Below, one piece after another: positions 53,164 through 64,000 of a stretch of 64,000 bases of DNA. Location: positions 1 through 64,000 of the forward strand of contig NZ_CAKLPY010000001.1 of the NCBI RefSeq assembly GCF_923079645.1, read 5' to 3'. The number at the start of each line of letters is the position of its first letter. Position 1 is the stretch's first letter. The notes under the pieces are model-generated. The model was not told the DNA's origin, did not search any database, and saw only the letters and a list, made by a program, of their open reading frames with translations. Made by a program: the position numbers and the translations under genes. This stretch comes from Emticicia aquatica (GTDB lineage Bacteria; Bacteroidota; Bacteroidia; Cytophagales; Spirosomataceae).

Positions 53164-54852
53164 TTACCAATCTAATTTTAGTAAAGAAACGCCTTGTCGA
53201 GGTAAAGAAATGTTAAGTTTTAGCTCACCATTCGTAGTTTTTAAATAAATCGGTGATGTCAACAAGGTCAATTGTCCTGCTTTTTCTAACACAGCGATTT
53301 GCTCATTCGTTGGATTTTCGGGAGAACCCATTTTTTTCCAAACTTCGTACGCATTACTATTTTCATTATCAATGCGATAATGGAATAAATTGACTGTTTT
53401 TGCTGGTAAACCTTTCAAATTTAGGTCAATAATAGCATTTTTCGCCTGCACATCGTCGTCATGATAATGCCAAAGCATAATCGCTGCCGAGCGATTATCT
53501 TTGCTTGCAAGGGCATCAATGTCAGCATTTTTGCCTCGAACACTCGAATCTCGCACCATCGAAAAAGTATAATTTTGATTGCCTTTTACTTCTGCTCGTG
53601 AGCCACTCATCAGACCAAACATTCGGAAAACATTCAATACTGGTTTATCAATGCCATTGGTTGCCAAATCTCTAAAACCGTAGAAATAAGGTTGGTTTTC
53701 AAATTCAAAAGACCAGCTTACGGCTCCCAAAAGATTGGCGTTGAAATAATCTGCGAGGGCATATTTTCGAGCAAAAGATGCGGCTGTATAACTCGAATAC
53801 ATAGTGCCATTTCGGTAGGCGTTTTGTGGATTGGTTTTCATGCCACAAGCGGCACAGCCTTCGGGGTCAGACTCGCCAATAATGATGGGAAGCTTTTTTA
53901 GCGTTGGAAAAGAAGTAACTATTTTAAAGCCTTCCGAAATATCTCGCAGCTGAGTTCCCATATTCATTTGCACATGTCCATCAACTATTTTCGGTGAACC
54001 TTTGGCATGAAAGCTAATAAAATCAAGTGGAGAACCAATTTTCCCAGTTACATAATTGGTGTCAGCTACGCAATGTTTTAAAAATATTTTCAAAAACTCA
54101 GAAGCTTTGCTCCAACTTGGGCCTGTTGTTTCGGGGCCACCCATTTTGATTGTAGGCAAAGCTCGTTTGGCGGCATCAGCAGTATAATCGTATAATTTGC
54201 AGTATTCCTGCACAGTTCCGCTCCAATAGCCGATATTCGGCTCATTCCAAAGTTCCCAATACCAACTTTCCACTTCTGTTTTGCCGTATCTTGTTACTGA
54301 GTGTTTTACCCATTCATATACCAAATCAGCCCATTTTTTATAGTCTTTGGGCGGGTAAGTCCAGCCTGTATAAACTTTGTCGTAGGGCATTCCTGGCTGC
54401 CAATGATGTTCGTACGGCTGTGGTTTTGTAGAAAGTGCTTCTGGCATAAAGCTAAATTGAGCCAAAGGTTTTACGCCACGTTGCAGATAAGTATCAAAAA
54501 TTTTATCTACAATTGTCCAATCATAAACAGGGTTTCCTTTTGCATCTTCGGTATAAACATTGGTCGAACCCCATTTTAAATTAAGTGTATCATGGCCAGA
54601 AGTCAATAAGTTATGAGCCCGAAAATAAACAGGAACTGGACTCATTGCCGACAACTCGGAAAGAAGTTTTTTCCCATCTTTCATGTACGCATAATTTGGT
54701 TCATCAGCACCAAAAAATGCCCAAAATGGATACATTTTTCCAATGTTTTTATTGAAATCTACGTCTATTTTTGTCGTTTCAATTGTTTGTTTTTGAGCAG
54801 AACTTAACAATGAAACCAACAATATGATAGCAGAAATGGAGATTTTTTTCAA
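53164..54852 (-). CDS. GH39-like glycoside hydrolase
   Basis: 562 residues with signal peptide (about 1-19). A TIM barrel (about 25-400) has the clan-A acid/base E204 in WELWNEPNIG and a nucleophile candidate E327 in PIIIGESDPEG, then a C-terminal beta-sandwich. The family includes beta-xylosidases, alpha-L-iduronidases and arabinose-active enzymes. In this pectin-type locus action on arabinose- or xylose-containing side chains is plausible. The gene follows the GH43-like gene by 23 bases. Confidence 0.85.
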   Translation of the reverse strand: MKKISISAIILLVSLLSSAQKQTIETTKIDVDFNKNIGKMYPFWAFFGADEPNYAYMKDGKKLLSELSAMSPVPVYFRAHNLLTSGHDTLNLKWGSTNVYTEDAKGNPVYDWTIVDKIFDTYLQRGVKPLAQFSFMPEALSTKPQPYEHHWQPGMPYDKVYTGWTYPPKDYKKWADLVYEWVKHSVTRYGKTEVESWYWELWNEPNIGYWSGTVQEYCKLYDYTADAAKRALPTIKMGGPETTGPSWSKASEFLKIFLKHCVADTNYVTGKIGSPLDFISFHAKGSPKIVDGHVQMNMGTQLRDISEGFKIVTSFPTLKKLPIIIGESDPEGCAACGMKTNPQNAYRNGTMYSSYTAASFARKYALADYFNANLLGAVSWSFEFENQPYFYGFRDLATNGIDKPVLNVFRMFGLMSGSRAEVKGNQNYTFSMVRDSSVRGKNADIDALASKDNRSAAIMLWHYHDDDVQAKNAIIDLNLKGLPAKTVNLFHYRIDNENSNAYEVWKKMGSPENPTNEQIAVLEKAGQLTLLTSPIYLKTTNGELKLNISLPRQGVSLLKLDW

Positions 54853-54875: not shown

Positions 54876-55811
54876 TTAAAATTTCTTTTTCAAATCGTTA
54901 AAAAATATTTCTGTAACCTTAAAAACTGTTCCGTGTCGTAAGCCTTTCGGGAAGTTTACTTGGCTAGAAATATCTTCCCAATTTTTGAAGTCATTTGAGC
55001 GAATGGCACCATATTGATGGTCAATATATTTATCAAAATAAACGTAAACATATTCACCAATACGAATAGAAGTTGGGCCTTCTGCCCAATAATTTCCAGT
55101 AATTGGCGGAGAAACTTCGGTAGAAAATGAATTGACTTGATTAGATTTTATAATACGAATGTTTTTTTGTGGAGGATTTGGGTTTTCATTTTTAACAAAC
55201 ATATAATAGCTTTTTCCATCATCGAGTATTGTGGCATCAATGGCACTGAAATTAGGATTAAAGAATATTTTTGTTGGACTAAAAGTTTTAAAATCAGTAG
55301 TTTCGGTGTAGTAAATTCGATGGTTCAACCCTTTTTCTTTTTCAGAATCGGCAATATCCGAATGCCTTCCTGGAATTGTTGTTGCCCAAAAAATGAGGTA
55401 GTTTTTCTTTTTTTCATCGTAAAAAACTTCAGGAGCCCAAGCGTTTTTGGCGGTTGGCTCGTGTTCCATTACAGGAATTGCTTTTTGTTCTGACCAATGT
55501 ACTAAGTCATTTGAAGATGCATAACCAATGATTTGGTCGTGCCAACCCGAAGTCCAAACCATTTGAAAAGTACCTTCGGGAGATTGAATAATGCAGGGGT
55601 CTCGCATTAATTTATCTTTACCTATTTCGGGTTTCAAAAATGATTTTCCAGCGTTGAGTGTTTCCCAAGAAAGGCCATCCTTACTATAAGCTAAGTGTAA
55701 ACCGTCTTGACCATTATCAGTGAAATATGAGAATAAATAAACGTCTTTTTGGGCGAATACGATGGTTGGAAGAAATAGTAAAATGAGTTTTACTAAAACT
55801 GGTATTTTCAT
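54876..55811 (-). CDS. GH43-like five-bladed beta-propeller glycoside hydrolase
   Basis: 311 residues with a signal peptide (about 1-20). Propeller motifs expected in clan GH-F are present: RDPCII (D71), NAWAPEVFYD (E128), SAIDATILDDG (D192) and the likely general acid E244 in YWAEGPT. GH43 enzymes remove arabinose, xylose or galactose from pectin and xylan; which one here is not clear. It is first in a unit with GH39 and lies downstream of the tandem LacI-type operator-like sites. Confidence 0.83.
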   Translation of the reverse strand: MKIPVLVKLILLFLPTIVFAQKDVYLFSYFTDNGQDGLHLAYSKDGLSWETLNAGKSFLKPEIGKDKLMRDPCIIQSPEGTFQMVWTSGWHDQIIGYASSNDLVHWSEQKAIPVMEHEPTAKNAWAPEVFYDEKKKNYLIFWATTIPGRHSDIADSEKEKGLNHRIYYTETTDFKTFSPTKIFFNPNFSAIDATILDDGKSYYMFVKNENPNPPQKNIRIIKSNQVNSFSTEVSPPITGNYWAEGPTSIRIGEYVYVYFDKYIDHQYGAIRSNDFKNWEDISSQVNFPKGLRHGTVFKVTEIFFNDLKKKF

Positions 55812-55825
55812 TTTCGGTTGAATAG

Positions 55826-55847
55826 TTTAAGGTCTATTGACCTTAAA
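55826..55847 (-). promoter_or_regulatory. Inverted repeat in the leader of the GH43 gene
   Basis: Perfect arms tttaaggtc and gaccttaaa around tatt, 15 bases before the start codon. It may be a 5' hairpin or a second regulator site. Confidence 0.35.
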
Positions 55848-55891
55848 TTTAACCTAATTATTGCAGTAAATCAATTAATAAAGAAGGTTAT

Positions 55892-55921
55892 TTTACGCAA
55901 ACGTTATCGGGAACGTTCCCG
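55892..55921 (-). promoter_or_regulatory. Tandem LacI-family operator-like sites upstream of GH43-GH39
   Basis: The first site reads ACGCAAACGTTAT (55895-55907). The second is a perfect 14-bp palindrome CGGGAACGTTCCCG (55908-55921). Both centre on AACGTT, the CG-centred core of many LacI/PurR-family operators, with centres 12 bp apart. The bases 55892-55905 are identical to 59549-59562 upstream of MIOX. Confidence 0.55.
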
Positions 55922-55955
55922 CCATTTGTTTTCAGAATAAAATTTTTGAAATAGC

Positions 55956-56003
55956 TGTGACCTACTTTGACAATCGAATAACAGATTGTCAAAGTAGGTC
56001 ACA
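55956..56003 (-). terminator. Long hairpin downstream of GH95
   Basis: Perfect 20-bp arms (55956-55975 and 55984-56003) with an 8-base loop, 5 bases past the GH95 stop. No long T-tract, but the stem is the strongest in this intergenic region. Confidence 0.65.
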
Positions 56004-56008
56004 AAGTA

Positions 56009-58402
56009 CTACCAATTAACCTCTATTTTTTGGCCAGCAGTGAGCGAAATTTGTTTAGTTTTTTTGCCAAAAATCAAAGTGGTTTTGCCACCCTTTTTTG
56101 AAGAAATAACTGTTTTTTTGAGGTTTTTATTTTGCCAATCTATCGCAATTTCAAAACCTCCTCTTGCACAAATACCTTTTGCTGAGCCACTTTCCCATGC
56201 ATCAGGTAAAGCAGGAAGTAACCTTATTTCTTTCTCATCAGATTGTACGAGCATTTCGGCTACGGCCGCAGCTCCACCAAAATTTCCATCAATCTGGAAA
56301 GGTGGATGAGCATCAAATAAGTTTGGATAAGTGCCACCACCACGTGCATAATTGGTTTTTACTTCATCGGGTTCAACATAATGCAATAACTCACGGTACA
56401 TTTTATACGCATGATTGCCGTCCCAAAGTCTTGCCCAAAGATTAATTCTCCAACCTTTGCTCCAACCTGTGGTTTCATCGCCTTTAATTTCAAGTGTTTT
56501 CCTGCAAGCATCGGCTAAAGCGGGCGATTTTATTGGTGTAATATGGTTTCCTGGGAAAAGCCCAAACAAATGCGATTGATGACGGTGTTGCGGTTCGGCA
56601 TCTTCCCAATCGAAGTACCATTCTTGTAAATTACCTTTTTTCCCAATTTGATAGGGATATAATTTTGCTAAAGCATCTTCCAATTTTGCTCTGAATGCAG
56701 CATCTATATTTAATATTTTTGAAGCTTTAATTGTTTTGTCAAAACACTCACGAATCATGGCTAAATCGGCACTTCCACCATACATTGTTGCTCCTTTATA
56801 TCCATCAGAGGCAATGTAAATATTCTCTGGAGAAGTTGATGGTGAGGTAATTAGCTTACCGTTTTTGTCTAATACTAACCATTCCAAACAAAACTGTGCA
56901 GCACCATGCATGATGTCGTATGCTTCATTTTTTAGGAAGTTTTTGTCTTGAGTGAAAACATAATGTTCCCATAAATGTGTACTTAACCAGGCTCCAGCCA
57001 TGTTCCAGTTTGCCCAACATGGGTCGCCTTGACCAAATTCACCAACAGGATTACTCATCGCCCAAATATCAGAATTATGGGCTGCTGTCCAGCCGTTTAC
57101 GCCATAAAAAGTTTTAGCTGTAATTTTACCAGTTTTTGATATATTTTTAATGAAACTGAGCATTGGCGAGTGCATTTCACTCAAATTGGTATTTTCAGCC
57201 AACCAATAATTTTCTTCAGCATTGATATTTGTGGTATAATTACTGCTCCAAGGTGGACGCATATAAGGGTTCCAAATTCCTTGTAAATTAGCAGGAACAC
57301 CTTCAGTTCGTGAACTGCTAATGAGCAAATAACGTCCATATTGGAAATACAAAATTTCTAAATTTTTATCTTCTTCTCCTTTGGCATAACGTCGCAAGCG
57401 TTCGTCAGTTGGAAGATTTGGGGCAGTGGTTTTGCCTAAATTTAAACTTACACGATTGAAATAATTTTGGTAGTTTTTTAGGTGAGCGAGTTTAATTTGG
57501 GCGAAAGTTTTGGCAAAAGCTTTTTGTAAGTTTTGGTTCGCAATGGCATTATTATTCAAGCCTTCGGTTGCTGGATTTTTATCAAAACCGTTAAAACTAC
57601 TTGCAATTGATACATAAATCAACGCTTCGCTAGCATTTTTTATACCTAACGTACTGTCTGTTGTTATGATTTTGCCATCCGTATTTTTGATTTTTGCCAA
57701 AGTTGTAAATCGTGTGCCTTGGTTTTCATCAAAAATGATTGGATTATCACTTTTTCTATAACTTGGCTCTGCATGAATAGGAGCGTAGCCGTTTATTTGT
57801 AGTGTATTTTTGGTAGTTATAGTTTTGTATTTTAACAAACTATTAAATTTCACATCGAAAGACAAAGCCCCTTTTTGACTACTCGTAAGTTTAATAACCA
57901 TGATTTGGTCTGGATACGAAACAAAATATTCACGCGTAAATTTTACGCCTTTCACTTCATAACTTACCTTAGAAATAGCTTCTGAAATATTCAATTCACG
58001 GTAATAATTTGTATATTCTTTGGGTTCATCGGAGTTGATATACATTGTTCCGAGCGGAGCAAATGATTCCGAAAATTTCCCTTGCAATTTTTTGTTGAGT
58101 TTATCTGCCAGTTTATAATCTTCATTTTGCAAAGCCTCCCTAATTGCAGGAAGATTTTTGTATGCCTCTGGATTCATATTGGCATTTACAGGGCCACCTG
58201 ACCAAAGAGTGGCATCATTGAGGTAAATTTTATCCGAATTTACGCCACCAAAAACTGTTGCTCCTATTTTTCCATTGCCCAAAACTAAGCTTTCTTCAAA
58301 ATATTGGGCGGGTTGTTTGTACCAAAGCGTATTGGTCGATTGGCCAAAAACACCAATAAAAGTAAATAAAAGTAAAATAATGCTGAAGTTGTATTTTTTC
58401 AT
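56009..58402 (-). CDS. GH95 alpha-L-fucosidase / alpha-L-galactosidase
   Basis: 797 residues with signal peptide (about 1-20). The GH95 pattern is complete: N-terminal beta-domain (LGNGKIGATVFGG, NDATLWSGGP), (alpha/alpha)6 barrel with EGVPANLQGIWNPY, the paired N392 and N394 (TNINAEENYW), E526 (STSPENIY) and the catalytic-base region FQIDGNFGG. These match the catalytic residues known from the bifidobacterial 1,2-alpha-L-fucosidase. Residue 395 is Ala where many fucosidases read NINTEMNYW, which could alter specificity. In pectin loci GH95 removes terminal L-galactose or L-fucose. Confidence 0.92.
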   Translation of the reverse strand: MKKYNFSIILLLFTFIGVFGQSTNTLWYKQPAQYFEESLVLGNGKIGATVFGGVNSDKIYLNDATLWSGGPVNANMNPEAYKNLPAIREALQNEDYKLADKLNKKLQGKFSESFAPLGTMYINSDEPKEYTNYYRELNISEAISKVSYEVKGVKFTREYFVSYPDQIMVIKLTSSQKGALSFDVKFNSLLKYKTITTKNTLQINGYAPIHAEPSYRKSDNPIIFDENQGTRFTTLAKIKNTDGKIITTDSTLGIKNASEALIYVSIASSFNGFDKNPATEGLNNNAIANQNLQKAFAKTFAQIKLAHLKNYQNYFNRVSLNLGKTTAPNLPTDERLRRYAKGEEDKNLEILYFQYGRYLLISSSRTEGVPANLQGIWNPYMRPPWSSNYTTNINAEENYWLAENTNLSEMHSPMLSFIKNISKTGKITAKTFYGVNGWTAAHNSDIWAMSNPVGEFGQGDPCWANWNMAGAWLSTHLWEHYVFTQDKNFLKNEAYDIMHGAAQFCLEWLVLDKNGKLITSPSTSPENIYIASDGYKGATMYGGSADLAMIRECFDKTIKASKILNIDAAFRAKLEDALAKLYPYQIGKKGNLQEWYFDWEDAEPQHRHQSHLFGLFPGNHITPIKSPALADACRKTLEIKGDETTGWSKGWRINLWARLWDGNHAYKMYRELLHYVEPDEVKTNYARGGGTYPNLFDAHPPFQIDGNFGGAAAVAEMLVQSDEKEIRLLPALPDAWESGSAKGICARGGFEIAIDWQNKNLKKTVISSKKGGKTTLIFGKKTKQISLTAGQKIEVNW

Positions 58403-58435
58403 TGAATATGATAGGGAAGGGTTGAATTGATTTTA

Positions 58436-58443
58436 CAAATATA
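58436..58443 (-). promoter_or_regulatory. -7 box TATATTTG upstream of GH95
   Basis: Exact TAnnTTTG match on the minus strand, 34 bases before the start; a TTG lies 16 bases further upstream, shorter than the usual spacing. Confidence 0.4.
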
Positions 58444-58501
58444 AGAAACGATTTTCAAACAATGGACATGGCTTTGTTGATTTGATATTTAGTAGATTTC
58501 C

Positions 58502-58555
58502 AAAAAAAATGCTTGACATTTCCAACTTTTGAAGTCGAAATATCAAGCATTTTTT
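58502..58555 (-). terminator. Terminator of the MIOX gene
   Basis: Arms aaaaaatgcttga and tcaagcatttttt enclose 26 bases; A- and T-runs at both ends, 25 bases past the stop. Confidence 0.7.
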
Positions 58556-58579
58556 ACGTTTTAATTGAATCAAGTAAAA

Positions 58580-59455
58580 TTAAAACTTCAACGTACTTGG
58601 TAAATATTTGGCTACCAAATCTTCGTAATATGGTCGAAGTGCTTTTGCATCAGGCGGAACAGGCACTTTTGAATATAAATCATAAGGATTAAACTTATCT
58701 ACCCATTTAAACATTTTGTAGTCGTGTGCCGACATCAAATGGCTATATGCGTCGTCACGGTGTTGTGGATAAAATGAGTGATAGCGAATCGGATATAACG
58801 CTTCTTCAGGCAAATAATTTTTCATCATTTGGTAAAGATATTCGTCATGTCCCCAAGACATTTTTACATTTTCAAGACCGCAATTAGGTGAATAAACACC
58901 ATATTTTGTATTGTATCTTTCGTCTTTTGAATCAGGATTTGCCTCAAAGAATTCTGGATAAACAATTTTGTCGGAGTGTTTGCAACCAACAGGGAAAGTA
59001 TCGCCTACAACTGCCCATTGAGGTTCGCCGAATAGACATAAAACTTTGCCCAAGTCGTGCATAAAACCCATTAATACAAACCAATCTGGATGACCATCAG
59101 CTCTGATTGCTTCCGAAGTTTGTAATAAATGTTGGAATTGGTCAAGATTTGTATCAGGGTCAGAATCATCAACTAATGTATTCAAGAAATCAATGGCATC
59201 CCAAACTGACATTTCTCGTTTGTCGAATTTCAAGAATTCTTTTTCTTTCTCCAACACAAAATCGTAAGTTTGGTAAGTATGATTCAAACGATAAAATTCT
59301 CTTACAGTATTTACTCGCTCAGAATCTACGTAATTACGGTATTCTTCTTTGGCTTTTTTCTCAGCATTTTTTGGCTCTGGGTATCTTTGAAGTAAATCAT
59401 CTTCCCATTCATCCATGCTTGCCAAAGGCGAAATTTCTTTTTCGGTGAAGCTCAT
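58580..59455 (-). CDS. myo-Inositol oxygenase (MIOX)
   Basis: Di-iron oxygenase that opens myo-inositol to D-glucuronate with O2. 291 residues strikingly close to the animal and plant enzyme: [18 protein letters not shown] is nearly identical to the human protein as recalled. All metal ligands are in place: H109, H133-D134 (FMHDLGK), H203 (SWGHDEY), H226 (YHSFYP) and D259 (NPYDLYSK), plus substrate-side K137. No signal peptide, so it acts in the cytoplasm. It sits directly after susCD in its own unit, preceded by a LacI-type operator-like site and closed by its own terminator. Its product is the substrate of UxaC at 36802. Confidence 0.95.
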
Positions 59456-59548
59456 TTGTATTTTCTTTTGAATTTTCTAAAGATTTTGCTTAAAAACTAA
59501 CAAATATTGTGCAATAAAGTTATAAAATCTATAATATTTCAAATAAAA

Positions 59549-59565
59549 TTTACGCAAACGTTTGA
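59549..59565 (-). promoter_or_regulatory. LacI-family operator-like site upstream of MIOX
   Basis: ACGCAAACGTTTG with a perfect 10-bp palindrome CAAACGTTTG (59555-59564), about 95 bases before the MIOX start. It shares 14 identical bases with the site upstream of GH43 and closely resembles the PurR/LacI consensus half-sites. Confidence 0.55.
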
Positions 59566-59572
59566 AATCGTT

Positions 59573-59606
59573 GTAGAAGAGACGTTGCCAAACAACGCCT
59601 CTTCTA
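59573..59606 (-). terminator. Terminator of the susCD unit
   Basis: Arms gtagaagagacgttg (59573-59587) and caacgcctcttctat (59592-59606) pair over 15 bp with two G-T/A-C type exceptions; it lies 19 bases past the susD stop. Confidence 0.6.
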
Positions 59607-59624: not shown

Positions 59625-61310
59625 TTAATACCCTTGGTTTTGTTTCAAATAACCAGGAAGATTTGATGCACCATCAATGGCAGTTTGTGGAATTGGGAAA
59701 ATTCTCTTCAACTTATCGCTGTTAGTTTTTTCAGTCCAAGTTCCTTCATATTTACCAAAACGAATCATATCTGTACGTCTTTGGTGTTCCCAATAAAACT
59801 CAAATCCACGCTCTTTGAATAAAATATCCAACGACATTGATGTCAATGCAGGTGGTGCAGATGTTCTGGCAGCTCTAACAATATTTACGTCGGCTAAAGC
59901 ACCTGCAGCATCATTACTTTTACGCAATTTTGCTTCGGCACGCATCATAAAAACATCAGCCAAACGAAGTATCACGATATCGGCTTCACCGAAGTTTCGT
60001 CCACTAACCGACTTCTTGCTAAATTCATATTTTTCAACTCTGTAACCCGAACTATAATCACTTCCTGCAGTAGTGAAGTCAACATTTTCAGTAAAAAATA
60101 CCGGTGCGGTTGGGCGGTTACGTGTATCATTGAAAAGCTTACCTACTTTGAAGTTTTTACCATCTGGACACTTCAAGAAAACACCATTTTTTCTAATTAA
60201 GCCATATTGTTGGCCACGTAAAATACCACGATTGATATTGAAATCTGCTTCAGCAACACAAGAATCGGCTGGATTAGAATAAATAGACAAGTTTTGCTTG
60301 TGAAATCTTGGGTCAACTGCTGCTGGATCTTTTGGTGCGTATTCGTTTGCCCAAGTTCTATAAAAATCAGGGGTAATGGCTGGGCCATCAGTTCCGTTGG
60401 CATTCGGATAATTTGGAAGCGGAAATTGGTCACCCGATAACGAGAAATATGCCATACGGTTATGTCCATTCAATTCTGCTCTTTGGTCAATCGCAAAAAT
60501 TAATTCTGGATTTGTGTGATTATCCGACCCAAAAATTGAGAAATAGTCAGCAGATAACTTGTATTGTCCTGAGTTAATAATTTTATCGCAATACTCTGTT
60601 ACTTTGTCCATTTCTTCTGGTTTGAAATTAGGCGTACCATAAATATCACGGTAAACTGCGGCGTTTAAATACAAACGAGCGAGTAAACCCCAAACTGCAC
60701 CTTTTGAAAGGCGACCAGGCCCGACGGTAGCATCTAAATTTGGCTCAATTGCAAGAAGTTCATTTTTGATGTATTGAAAAGCTTCTTCTCCACGAATAAT
60801 TTTTGATGTTTCGCCGATGTCCTCTTTCACGAAAACCAAACCAAAAAGGTCTAAAGTTAACATTGAGTAGTAGGCACGCATACCTCTTGCTTCTGCAAGA
60901 TACACTTTTGCACTTGGGTCATTGAGGGTTGGCAAAGTATTGATTGCCGTAATTGCTCTTGACATTCCTTGCAAAATAAAGTTCCAAGTATTACGCAAAT
61001 TTGGGTCAGTACTTTGGTAGGTATGTTGGTGCATAGCCATATAAATTCCGTTATCGCCCCAATCGGTACCGCCACGATATGGTAAAATAGCTTCGTCGGT
61101 AGAGATTTCTTGAATGGCAAAATAGTTAGTATGCAAGAAAATATCGGGAAGACGAGCATAAACGGGAGCAATGATTCCGTCGGCTGCTTGTTTGTCGGTT
61201 AATTTAGCTGCAGAAAGCGTTTCATCCAAGATTTCTTCTTTCAAGTCGGTACAGCTTTCAAAAAATATGATACTAAAAAGCATCAGTACTGAATATATTT
61301 TCTTTTTCAT
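59625..61310 (-). CDS. susD: SusD/RagB-type glycan-binding lipoprotein
   Basis: 561 residues with a lipobox (FFESC, Cys20) and the SusD fold: N-terminal TPR-like helices (NTWNFILQGMSRAITAIN, EARGMRAYYSMLTLDLFG) and a C-terminal RagB segment with ILRLADVFMMRAEAKLR and FKERGFEFYWEHQRRTDMIRF-type helices. It forms the surface lid of the adjacent SusC and binds the oligosaccharide. It follows susC by 64 bases. Its ligand is not evident, but the neighbouring enzymes point to a pectic glycan. Confidence 0.95.
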   Translation of the reverse strand: MKKKIYSVLMLFSIIFFESCTDLKEEILDETLSAAKLTDKQAADGIIAPVYARLPDIFLHTNYFAIQEISTDEAILPYRGGTDWGDNGIYMAMHQHTYQSTDPNLRNTWNFILQGMSRAITAINTLPTLNDPSAKVYLAEARGMRAYYSMLTLDLFGLVFVKEDIGETSKIIRGEEAFQYIKNELLAIEPNLDATVGPGRLSKGAVWGLLARLYLNAAVYRDIYGTPNFKPEEMDKVTEYCDKIINSGQYKLSADYFSIFGSDNHTNPELIFAIDQRAELNGHNRMAYFSLSGDQFPLPNYPNANGTDGPAITPDFYRTWANEYAPKDPAAVDPRFHKQNLSIYSNPADSCVAEADFNINRGILRGQQYGLIRKNGVFLKCPDGKNFKVGKLFNDTRNRPTAPVFFTENVDFTTAGSDYSSGYRVEKYEFSKKSVSGRNFGEADIVILRLADVFMMRAEAKLRKSNDAAGALADVNIVRAARTSAPPALTSMSLDILFKERGFEFYWEHQRRTDMIRFGKYEGTWTEKTNSDKLKRIFPIPQTAIDGASNLPGYLKQNQGY

Positions 61311-61374: not shown

Positions 61375-64000
61375 TTAGAATGAAACATTTAGTCCAAAAA
61401 TGATTGATTTAGCTTTTGGATAACTTAAATAATCAATACCGTATGACGATATTCCGTTGATAGTTCGGTCAGTGTTAACTTCTGGGTCGTAACCGTTATA
61501 TTTCGTGATAACGAAAAGGTTTTGGCCCGTTACTGACAGACGTAATGTTGGAATATATTTGTCAATTCCTAATGCTCTCGTATTGAAATTATAGCCTAAA
61601 GCCAAGTTGTTTAGACGAAGGAATGCACCATCTTTTAAGAATCTAGTCGAAACAGGAGCGGCATTATTTGTTGATTCATTGGCATTTTTTACGGCTTCAG
61701 GAGTTGTATTAATTCCTTTCGATAATCTCAATTTATAGAAATTCGAGTTGGCAGTATTATCATAAATTTTATTACCACGCACACCATTGAAATTGACAAT
61801 CAAATCGAAACCTTTGTAACCGATATTTCCAAAAAAGTTATATTGCATGGTTGGCAATGCACTTCCTGCTGCAATTCTATCTTTGTCAGTCACAAGTCCG
61901 TCTCCATCAACATCTCGGTAAGTACTCAAACCTTTGTCGTCAAATCCTGTAAATTCTTTTAAGAAAAACGTACCGATTGGCTGACCGCTGATGTAACCAT
62001 TAATTGTAGCCGAGGTTAAACCAGAACCTGATGCACTTCCTGAAGGAATAACCGAATAGGGTGAATTATTAACAACATTTTTGATGAAAGTAACATTTCC
62101 ACCAATTCCATAGTTAAGTCCACTTTTAGTTTTTTGACGGTAAGCTAAATCAATTTCCAAACCTTTATTGACAATTTTCATGTCGTGAACATTTGTCCAG
62201 AAAGTACCCGCAGGCTGCACTGGGTCAGAAGGAATAACTTCCAATAAAATATCGTTTGAAACTTTATTGAAATAGTCAACCGAGCCCGATAACGCACCAT
62301 TCAAAAAGCCAAAATCAACTCCAATATTACTTTGTGATGAAACTTCCCACTGAATATCAGGGTTTGCCAAGCGAGTGTAGGTAGTTCCTGCTGGATAAAC
62401 ATTTGATGAATTAAGAGGATAACTCGTTGAAGCCGCAACTTGTGAAGTAAACAAAGCTTGGGTAATTTTTGAAGGAATTTCTTGATTACCTGTTTGTCCC
62501 CAACCAGCTCTTAATTTTAGATTACTTACTGGCGAAGATTTCATGAATTCTTCTTCCGAAATTCTCCAACCTGCTGCAAATGAAGGGAAAATACCGTATT
62601 TATTGTTTGCACCGAATTTTGATGAACCATCAGCACGAACAGTTGCGGTTAATAAGTACTTATTTTTGTATTGATAATTTACTCTTGAAAAAAATGATTG
62701 AAGTTCATTTTTAAGAGCATAACCCGATGGTTTGTTGTTGGCAAGGGTTAATTCTTGACCTAAACCTGGGTTATAAATTGGCTCAATATCAGAAATTGGA
62801 AATTTATTGATACTAGATGAACGTCCTTGTAAGAAAAACTTTTGATAAGAATGACCTGCTAATGCCGTTAGGCTATGGTCTTTCCAATCGTGCGAATAAG
62901 TAAGGTAGTTTTCGATGAGACTGTTACTGTTCGTATTGTAAATGGTTTCGAGGCGACCGTCTTGTAAAGGCACTGCATTAGGCAAAGACTCTAAATCACG
63001 AACTGAGTTTGAATTATCAATGCCATAATTTAAACGGTATGTTAAATCTTTAGTAATTTTGAAAGATGGAGAAATGTTTCCAATCAAACGGTTTGTTTTA
63101 GTGATGTCTTTTTCCAACTTTAAACTAACCAAAGGATTCACTAAGTTTGGATAAACTGCTGGATTTCCATTAGAATCATACGCTGGGTATGTTGGGTTGG
63201 TAGAAATGGCATTTCCAAGCATGCTTCCAATTGGTGGACGAGCATTTGTTGTAGAAGTTACATTTAAGTTGGCATCAACTATTAAGCGGTCATCCCAAAA
63301 CTTTTGGCTAACGTTGATTCTTCCTGTATATCGGTCTAAATCATTGTTTTTCAGAATACCTTCTTGTTTTTGAGCACCAAACGAAGCATAATAAGTCAAT
63401 TTTCCTGCTCCGCCACCCAAAGTTAAGTTATGGTTTTGTGTGTATGCGGTTCGTGTAATTTCTTTTTGCCAGTCGGTATTTCCTTTCAAATCTTCTAAAA
63501 CACCGCCTACACTTGGTACGGCTTTACGGTATTCGTCGGCCGTGTAAATAGGCAACGCACGTGCGATTTCTGAAATACCTAAACTTGCCGAATAGTTAAG
63601 CGATGAGCTGCCTGCTTTCCCTTTTTTTGTTGTAATCAAAATAACACCATTTGCTCCACGTGACCCATAAATGGCAGTTGCGGAAGCATCTTTCAATACA
63701 TCAATTGTTTCAATATCTTGTGGATTCAAGAATGTTAGCGGATTCATTGCTCCGCCTGTTCCCGAATTATCTAAAGCTAAACCATCCACTACAAATAGTG
63801 GTGTACTTCCTGTACGAACACCACCAGGGCCTCTAATCGTAATTCCTTGTGCTGAACCTGGCTCTCCACTTGCCGACGTAACATTTACACCTGCAACTTT
63901 ACCTTGTAATAATTGCTCAGGCGAGTTGATAATTCCTTTGTTAAATTCTTCACTTCTGACTGATTTCACCGCACCAGTAATATCAGTTTTTTTAGCTGTA
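61375..64000 (-). CDS. susC: SusC-type TonB-dependent transporter, 5' end outside the window
   Basis: About 875 codons are present and the frame is still open at position 64000, so the signal peptide and the regulatory-like domain lie beyond the edge; the GTG at 63969 is an internal valine. The visible plug begins with the SusC hallmark AKKTDITGAVKSV and continues with LLQGKVAGVNVTSASGEPGS, ITIRGPGGVRTGSTPLFVVD and IYGSRGANGVILITTKKGK. The 22-strand barrel ends in YPKAKSIIFGLNVSF. It imports oligosaccharides across the outer membrane together with SusD. Confidence 0.95.
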   Translation of the reverse strand, partial: TAKKTDITGAVKSVRSEEFNKGIINSPEQLLQGKVAGVNVTSASGEPGSAQGITIRGPGGVRTGSTPLFVVDGLALDNSGTGGAMNPLTFLNPQDIETIDVLKDASATAIYGSRGANGVILITTKKGKAGSSSLNYSASLGISEIARALPIYTADEYRKAVPSVGGVLEDLKGNTDWQKEITRTAYTQNHNLTLGGGAGKLTYYASFGAQKQEGILKNNDLDRYTGRINVSQKFWDDRLIVDANLNVTSTTNARPPIGSMLGNAISTNPTYPAYDSNGNPAVYPNLVNPLVSLKLEKDITKTNRLIGNISPSFKITKDLTYRLNYGIDNSNSVRDLESLPNAVPLQDGRLETIYNTNSNSLIENYLTYSHDWKDHSLTALAGHSYQKFFLQGRSSSINKFPISDIEPIYNPGLGQELTLANNKPSGYALKNELQSFFSRVNYQYKNKYLLTATVRADGSSKFGANNKYGIFPSFAAGWRISEEEFMKSSPVSNLKLRAGWGQTGNQEIPSKITQALFTSQVAASTSYPLNSSNVYPAGTTYTRLANPDIQWEVSSQSNIGVDFGFLNGALSGSVDYFNKVSNDILLEVIPSDPVQPAGTFWTNVHDMKIVNKGLEIDLAYRQKTKSGLNYGIGGNVTFIKNVVNNSPYSVIPSGSASGSGLTSATINGYISGQPIGTFFLKEFTGFDDKGLSTYRDVDGDGLVTDKDRIAAGSALPTMQYNFFGNIGYKGFDLIVNFNGVRGNKIYDNTANSNFYKLRLSKGINTTPEAVKNANESTNNAAPVSTRFLKDGAFLRLNNLALGYNFNTRALGIDKYIPTLRLSVTGQNLFVITKYNGYDPEVNTDRTINGISSYGIDYLSYPKAKSIIFGLNVSF

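Follow-up and report, generated by a model that had tools for sequence, protein, structure and literature searches.

Two LacI-family regulators with partly shared operators are predicted to meet in one polysaccharide utilization locus of Emticicia aquatica

The first 64,000 nucleotides of contig C1 of Emticicia aquatica (hereafter the window, C1:1-64000; genome G000, 4.94 Mb in 25 contigs) carry a polysaccharide utilization locus (PUL) in which genes for glycoside hydrolases of families 43 and 39 (GH43, GH39), myo-inositol oxygenase (MIOX) and a SusC/SusD-like pair lie on the minus strand (Table 1). Control of such loci in Bacteroidota is usually described in terms of SusR, hybrid two-component and extracytoplasmic function (ECF) sigma/anti-sigma systems. 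An original prediction made from the window held that a 14-mer, TTTACGCAAACGTT, repeated ahead of GH43-GH39 and ahead of MIOX, is the operator of one LacI-type regulator joining inositol and pectin units. Its descriptive part was confirmed: the two copies are identical (0 mismatches) and have no further exact match within the window, copy 1 is followed by a perfect palindrome, a terminator hairpin precedes each copy, and the unit names GH43, GH39 and MIOX are correct by Pfam. The window has no LacI gene, all five PF00356 matches of the genome lying outside it. The regulatory part requires revision, in that the 14-mer is probably half of two different operators, here called O1 and O2, each assigned to a LacI-family regulator of its own.

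O1 (CGCAAACGTTATCGGGAACGTTCCC in the window) fits without mismatch a 25-bp Emticicia pattern, YGCAAWCGTTRTCGGKAACGTTVYC, with two CG-centred sites 12 bp apart. It takes in the palindrome noted previously and contains an even palindrome with a central CG (GGGAACGTTCCC), the whole element exceeding one palindrome. A LacI-family gene with a matching site, which the original prediction had called for, was identified at C1:111618-112631. It lies 48 kb beyond the window and diverges from kduD-kduI and from one gene each of pectinesterase and GH28 type; in the kduD-lacI gap, TTTATGCAATCGTTATCGGTAACGTTGCC (C1:111471) aligns with TTTACGCAAACGTTATCGGGAACGTTCCC of the window. kduI scored above its NCBIfam cut-off and KduD slightly below (335.3 bits, cut-off 338.85). 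The LacI protein, P0001, reached no equivalog above cut-off in an NCBIfam search. Both P0001 and P0005 (see below) carry PF00356 and PF13377/PF00532 above cut-off, namely a LacI helix-turn-helix (HTH) and a periplasmic-binding-protein-like sensor domain. We refer to P0001 as KdgR-like for its LacI family membership and its linkage to kduID, in front of which the site stands. Ten of 11 Emticicia genomes encode P0001 or a near relative of it (71-100% identity), and all ten have the O1 element in the gap. With up to 3 mismatches allowed, YGCAAWCGTTRTCGGKAACGTTVYC matched these 11 genomes 21 times, 20 times without mismatch and once with 3, compared with 1 match for the reversed control. The 20 perfect copies comprised 10 in the kduD-lacI gap, 6 at a GH43-containing operon and 4 before another gene of such loci. 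O1 stands directly before the GH43 operon in G000, G005, G008 and G009, whilst in G003 and G010 a GH44-type gene comes first and then the GH43 gene (L225); in G001, G004, G006 and G007 O1 lies in the gap before a YNPEKPDL-type gene, whose homologue in the window's genome is at C1:66228-67451. Among 31 loci with a P0001 relative in named genomes, O1 was present with no mismatch in 26, with 2 in L103 and with 4 in L107 (gap sequence CCGGGAACGTTTCC); L106, L109 and L110 lacked it at the mismatch limit used. O1 is also present in Dyadobacter, and is conserved across the two genera as islands inside otherwise changed gaps. These data suggest that P0001-type proteins bind O1.

O2 (ACGCAAACGTTTGAAATCGTT) is a 21-bp unit whose pattern, AYGCAAACGTTTGAAATYGWT, occurs once before MIOX and twice, 21 bp apart, before susC in six of the seven Emticicia genomes with MIOX. 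It differs from O1 over the long element (...TATCGGGAACGTTCCC in O1, ...TGAAATCGTT in O2), and a central-CG even palindrome is seen in the O2 of L274 (ATTGCAAACGTTTGCAAT). The susC tandem includes the third intergenic copy of the 11-mer ACGCAAACGTT, at C1:64827, 827 bases past the window end. This O2 pair stands about 410-455 bases before the susC start (C1:64414-64970, outside the window), which would give the susC mRNA a long leader of perhaps 300-350 bases; the corresponding gaps of G003 and G005 are similarly long. Four Emticicia genomes without MIOX (G001, G004, G006, G007) carry the O2 variant ATGCAAACGTTTTAAATYGTT in tandem before an iolB-led operon (read in G001, G004 and G006; the G007 pair is known only from the pattern match list), and also, judged by look, as a tandem pair ahead of one susC-like gene and as a single unit ahead of a second. 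The operon order is iolB-iolC-iolA-iolG-transporter-iolJ-iolD-iolE, with a LacI gene last in G004 and G006 (L217, L218). Its iolB, C, D, E and G genes exceed NCBIfam cut-offs; iolA and iolJ owe their names to position and appearance, and the aldolase was placed in the ketose-bisphosphate aldolase subfamily only. In a tree of 50 LacI rows, P0001 and P0005 (C1:451573-452607), for which we coined the label InoR, fell into separate clades of 10 rows each, the InoR clade (support 100/100) comprising the LacI proteins of the four MIOX-less genomes, that encoded at C1:451573 and five more. O1 thus sorts with the kduD-linked LacI P0001, and O2 with the iol/MIOX/susCD-linked LacI P0005/P0006; P0005 is the predicted ligand-responsive protein for O2, to which it would bind.

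Loss of the motif from the same promoters of close relatives, an outcome that the original prediction had named as contrary to it, was confined to one genome of the seven with MIOX. The other six keep intact O1 at the GH43-containing operon and intact O2 at MIOX. G002 (loci L351 and L171; 90% complete) appears to be a case of natural decay of both: its GH43 O1 is altered at both CG centres (GGAAATGTTCCCCAAAACATTTGC) with the core promoter retained, and its O2 before MIOX, two decayed units, has changed to AAAGCTTT. This genome has MIOX, no InoR match and no susC at that place.

Table 1. Positions of genes, predicted operators and promoter elements in the window, and of the O2 pair beyond it
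Feature	Position	Strand	Remark
GH39, gene next after GH43	53164..54852	-	PF01229
GH43-type glycosidase (P0004), first gene after O1	54876..55811	-	PF04616
Predicted -7 element TAAATTTA of GH43 promoter	55844..55851	-	consensus TAnnTTTG (PMC7366714)
TTG, 22 bases downstream of O1, predicted as -33 element for GH43	55872..55874	-	
14-mer copy 1, TTTACGCAAACGTT, left half of O1	55892..55905	+	exact match
O1, composite predicted LacI-type operator upstream of GH43-GH39	55896..55920	-	0 mismatches to Emticicia pattern
Palindrome CGGGAACGTTCCCG, right half of O1	55908..55921		perfect
Terminator hairpin between GH95 and O1	55956..56003		20-bp perfect arms
MIOX, myo-inositol oxygenase	58580..59455	-	PF05153, E 4e-109
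Possible -7 element CTTTATTG of MIOX promoter	59512..59519	-	register less clear than in other genera
14-mer copy 2, TTTACGCAAACGTT, before MIOX	59549..59562	+	exact match
O2, predicted LacI-type operator unit upstream of MIOX, assigned to InoR	59552..59572	-	
Terminator hairpin between susD and O2	59574..59606		14-bp arms (93%)
SusD-like	59625..61310	-	PF07980
SusC-like receptor, continues beyond window to C1:64413	61375..64000	-	plug domain
Two tandem O2 units, gap before susC-susD pair, outside window	C1:64827-64868		

The InoR-O2 association extends through the family. InoR relatives (E 1e-85 or better) were found in 57 of 150 family genomes and MIOX in 121, with both in 36; joint presence of the two genes is by itself no argument for a link. 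At 20 InoR loci examined, the gene adjoined iol genes (5), MIOX (3), susCD-MIOX (5), susCD (3) or none of these (4), so that InoR stands beside iol or MIOX genes in 13 of 20. An O2-like site (up to 3 mismatches) was present at InoR or a neighbouring gene in 17 of the 20, with 0-1 mismatch in 15, 2 in L272 and 3 in L271; L258, L259 and L265 had no such site there. Upstream of MIOX, a site within 2 mismatches of TTGCAAACGTTTGCAA was found in 12 of 25 InoR-positive genomes, 1 of 44 InoR-negative genomes and 0 of 1380 shuffles (Fisher p 6e-6 for the association with InoR). The positive sample was drawn from the 36 genomes with both genes, six Emticicia and four others, each read separately, being kept apart together with G146; the negative sample was 44 of the 85 genomes with MIOX and no InoR match, of which L282, L300 and L334 have fewer than 300 bases upstream, L304 being omitted as the same genome as L328. 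Four of the 13 InoR-positive genomes without a MIOX site (G024, G069, G090, G098) have MIOX behind susCD, where the site stands. A tree was built from 36 InoR rows with 3 outgroups, its root depending on long outgroup branches; on it, the pathway that a genome has required 3 changes, compared with 9.6 in shuffles. Regulator and inositol pathway seem to travel together. A scenario in which Emticicia kept a resident InoR while swapping iol for MIOX was dropped, the InoR of the two Emticicia clades not being drawn as sisters: clade A is placed with genus g13 (support 95/89), and the branch separating clade B has 91/92, below the tool's firm-support mark.

A repeated 14-mer alone is nothing special, and chance would give such repeats; the window contains 851 distinct repeated 14-mers against 73-131 in 20 Markov-1 simulations. 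The wider pattern TTWAYGCAAWCGTT has four exact matches in the genome (the two window copies, C1:111467 and C1:631776), and with 2 mismatches gave 631 matches compared with 842 for its control. The exact 11-mer was unspecific (7 genomic matches, 10 for the reversed control), GCAAACGTTTG with one mismatch was useless for a regulon scan (152 matches, control 124), and the palindrome pattern GGNAACGTTNCC occurred at 3 genomic places against 4 for its control, so the palindrome alone is no evidence. A sigma-70 promoter scan gave no excess either (16 matches, 14.5 in shuffles). A terminator scan listed CGGGAACGTTCCCG as terminator-like; we judged it part of an operator because it is conserved within O1. 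Copies in coding DNA were the other contrary outcome foreseen by the original prediction, and four of the seven 11-mers are coding. The motif is nevertheless judged real because of its position, the longer elements and their conservation. A functionless chance repeat, which the frequency of 14-mer repeats and the coding copies might suggest, is contradicted by the conserved islands in changed gaps across two genera and by the family-wide link of InoR to O2, and is hardly credible. A LacI-type operator is likewise supported, CG-centred sites being conserved next to LacI genes across many genomes.

Whether one LacI regulator binds both copies is a separate matter. The 14-mer is identical in both places, and O1 of the GH43 operon has CGCAAACG in G000, G005, G008 and G010 rather than the TGCAATCG of most kduD sites. 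In addition, ACGCAAACGTTCCC is found in the gap upstream of a distant Chitinophagaceae relative of P0001 (locus L106), so P0001-type proteins may accept a GCAAACG half. Against this, the two elements are not alike over their full length and go with separate LacI clades, and O2 at MIOX promoters tracks the presence of InoR (12/25 vs 1/44). A single regulator joining inositol and pectin units is accordingly not supported, and we consider it improbable, though both proteins may cross-bind via the common half-site.

The other reading of O2 that had to be weighed takes it as a direct repeat bound by an AraC-type or hybrid two-component regulator. The tandem O2 units are 21 bp apart, and sites of hybrid two-component systems in Bacteroides thetaiotaomicron are direct repeats (PMC3878776). 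However, LacI sites 21-22 bp apart are also known (PMC4052901, section 9), and in other genera the LacI gene, or the gene beside it, has just one CG-centred palindrome. For this last reason the reading was dropped as very unlikely.

The position of both operators relative to the predicted core promoters is suggestive of activation. Counting from the final C of ...TTGC, with the site read towards the gene, TTG lies 22 bases after O1 in 33/37 or 35/39 distinct instances, and a -7-like box stands roughly 45 bases on. All four exceptions belong to a single promoter type that has AAT at position 22 and TACTTTTA at position 46. When O1 instances were clustered at 75% identity, TTG at 22 was shared by 8 of 9 clusters, whereas the best shared position in 5000 shuffles reached at most 4, once. 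For O2, TAnnNTTG occurs at +46 in 27 of 77 rows and at +47 in 4, in iolB, susC and MIOX promoters of several genera. Four to five of 16 O2 clusters share +46, against at most 3 in shuffles (3 of 5000), distal tandem copies having been removed for this test (77 to 64 rows). The -7 and -33 elements are known (PMC7366714), and the -7 box has been placed at -12 to -5 (PMC9723704); by arithmetic from that placement, and on predicted starts, a site at +46 is centred at -64.5. Such a placement would fit a class-I-type activator, the register being clear for O1 and for O2 in several genera, unclear at MIOX and susC of Emticicia. The fixed register upstream of the core promoter, centred near -64, thus suggests that the LacI-type proteins here turn genes on rather than off. 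At C4:51810 and C5:103241-103266 there are also LacI-like sites (GTGCAAACGTTTGAATC; two sites 12 bp apart), each before a further susC-like gene close to a LacI gene of its own, and they roughly match the same register to -33/-7 elements.

Characterized LacI-type proteins of sugar use are mostly repressors. The two regulators and their sites could be as we propose and both proteins still be ordinary repressors lifted by ligand; the LacI-type IolQ of Bacillus subtilis represses an inositol gene (PMC5504672). The sites nonetheless lie upstream of the predicted core promoter without overlapping it, hold a fixed register in unrelated promoters, and resemble in layout the promoters of LacI-type proteins believed to activate (PMC6882875), although activation in that work was inferred from site position and the mutant showed no significant expression change of those genes. 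We regard repression as the less likely, though still plausible, reading.

The arrangement that we consider likely is one in which the KdgR-like LacI encoded beside kduD-kduI (C1:111618) would act at O1 upstream of GH43-GH39, and InoR (C1:451573) at O2 upstream of MIOX and at the tandem O2 upstream of susCD, so that two regulators, each with its own operator, would meet in one PUL. The 14-mer would be common to both operators because both proteins use the half-site GCAAACG. Both would be mainly activators that touch RNA polymerase from one constant face of the helix, the centre of the nearest site lying some 64 bp before the start. The ligand of the KdgR-like protein would be a uronate breakdown product, and that of InoR myo-inositol, since the iol and MIOX routes have no other metabolite in common; to our knowledge, this is the only one they share. 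A more far-reaching version, with family-wide LacI activation from one register (site centred near -64 and followed by the -33 element at 22 bp and the -7 box at 45-46 bp) and a hybrid GH43 operator recognised by the uronate as well as the inositol LacI, coupling inositol and pectin use, appears doubtful.

Several observations weigh against the two-regulator arrangement. G002 keeps the KdgR-like LacI and an intact kduD site, though its GH43 site has decayed. The GH43 O1 carries CGCAAACG, which is closer to O2 than is the TGCAATCG found at most kduD sites; a single protein may therefore contact both elements. In the window's genome InoR is unlinked. Nine of the 25 InoR-positive genomes (eight of genus g13, and G063) have no MIOX site and, as far as read, no MIOX behind an InoR-linked susCD; at the two g13 loci examined, InoR and site are both at susCD. 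Conversely, G020 (88% complete, 700 contigs) has no InoR match at E 1e-85, yet its MIOX is preceded, at a distance of about 95 bp, by a good O2-like site, ATTACAAACGTTTGCAAT, whose -7 box stands at +46 (L282); either an InoR was missed or a different regulator acts there. As to register, the remaining O2 rows of the 77, a set that includes coding matches, distal repeats and reverse readings, lack the box at +46/+47. In the window's own genus there is no TAnnNTTG at +46 at MIOX or susC, and O2 of Emticicia clade B stands at 35/56 (tandem; 35 being 56 minus the 21-bp repeat) or 56-57 (single), about one turn away.

The components have known counterparts. LacI-type KdgR (B. subtilis kdgR-kduID; Bacteroides KdgR BT0487) regulates uronate breakdown (PMC3878776, PMC4052901), and B. 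subtilis KdgR sites are likewise reported to lie in the kdgR-kduI gap; here, by contrast, the operator is a 25-bp double one, 22 bp before the -33 element, and also precedes PUL glycosidases (GH43/GH44). InoR resembles the seven LacI-type IolR groups tabulated in PMC4052901, B. subtilis IolQ (PMC5504672) and IpsA (PMC3899939) as a LacI-family regulator of inositol genes, but differs in that a single regulator clade, with one operator, is found with susCD and with one or the other of MIOX and the iol operon. CcpA and AraQ/MalR1 are LacI-type proteins likewise thought to activate from upstream sites in helical turns from -35 (PMC6882875); their distances vary by promoter (15-16 or 33-35 bp), whereas one register dominates for O1. 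GntR at gntKU, RafR and ScrR offer similar cases of sites that overlap (spacing about 13 bp) or are doubled (21-22 bp; PMC4052901, section 9), except that O1 has 12 bp between CG centres and O2 comes as one unit or two within the same regulon.

Publications already describe LacI-type KdgR in Bacteroides and, in other organisms, LacI-type IolR (PMC3878776, PMC4052901). A literature search, thin on subscription journals, returned no report of a LacI-type MIOX regulator, of these operators, of the register or of LacI control in Emticicia, and no paper on any regulator of a bacterial myo-inositol oxygenase gene. In the main text of PMC9430895, a survey of iol genes, the terms 'laci' and 'miox' each count 0. 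What the comparison offers is the assignment, from sequence, of two LacI-type regulators to PUL promoters, one of which has a predicted LacI-type operator before the myo-inositol oxygenase gene. That a single regulator clade and its operator serve either of two unrelated inositol pathways points to myo-inositol as the signal, and if the fixed register does mean activation, LacI proteins of this group would act opposite to the textbook case.

A further LacI protein of the genome (C1:1474008-1475171; L015:9008-10171) has an extra N-terminal CxxC...CxxC segment with the look of a zinc ribbon before the HTH. The segment is present in 16 of the 50 LacI rows of the genus, and GGAAACGTTTCC lies upstream of that gene at C1:1475292.

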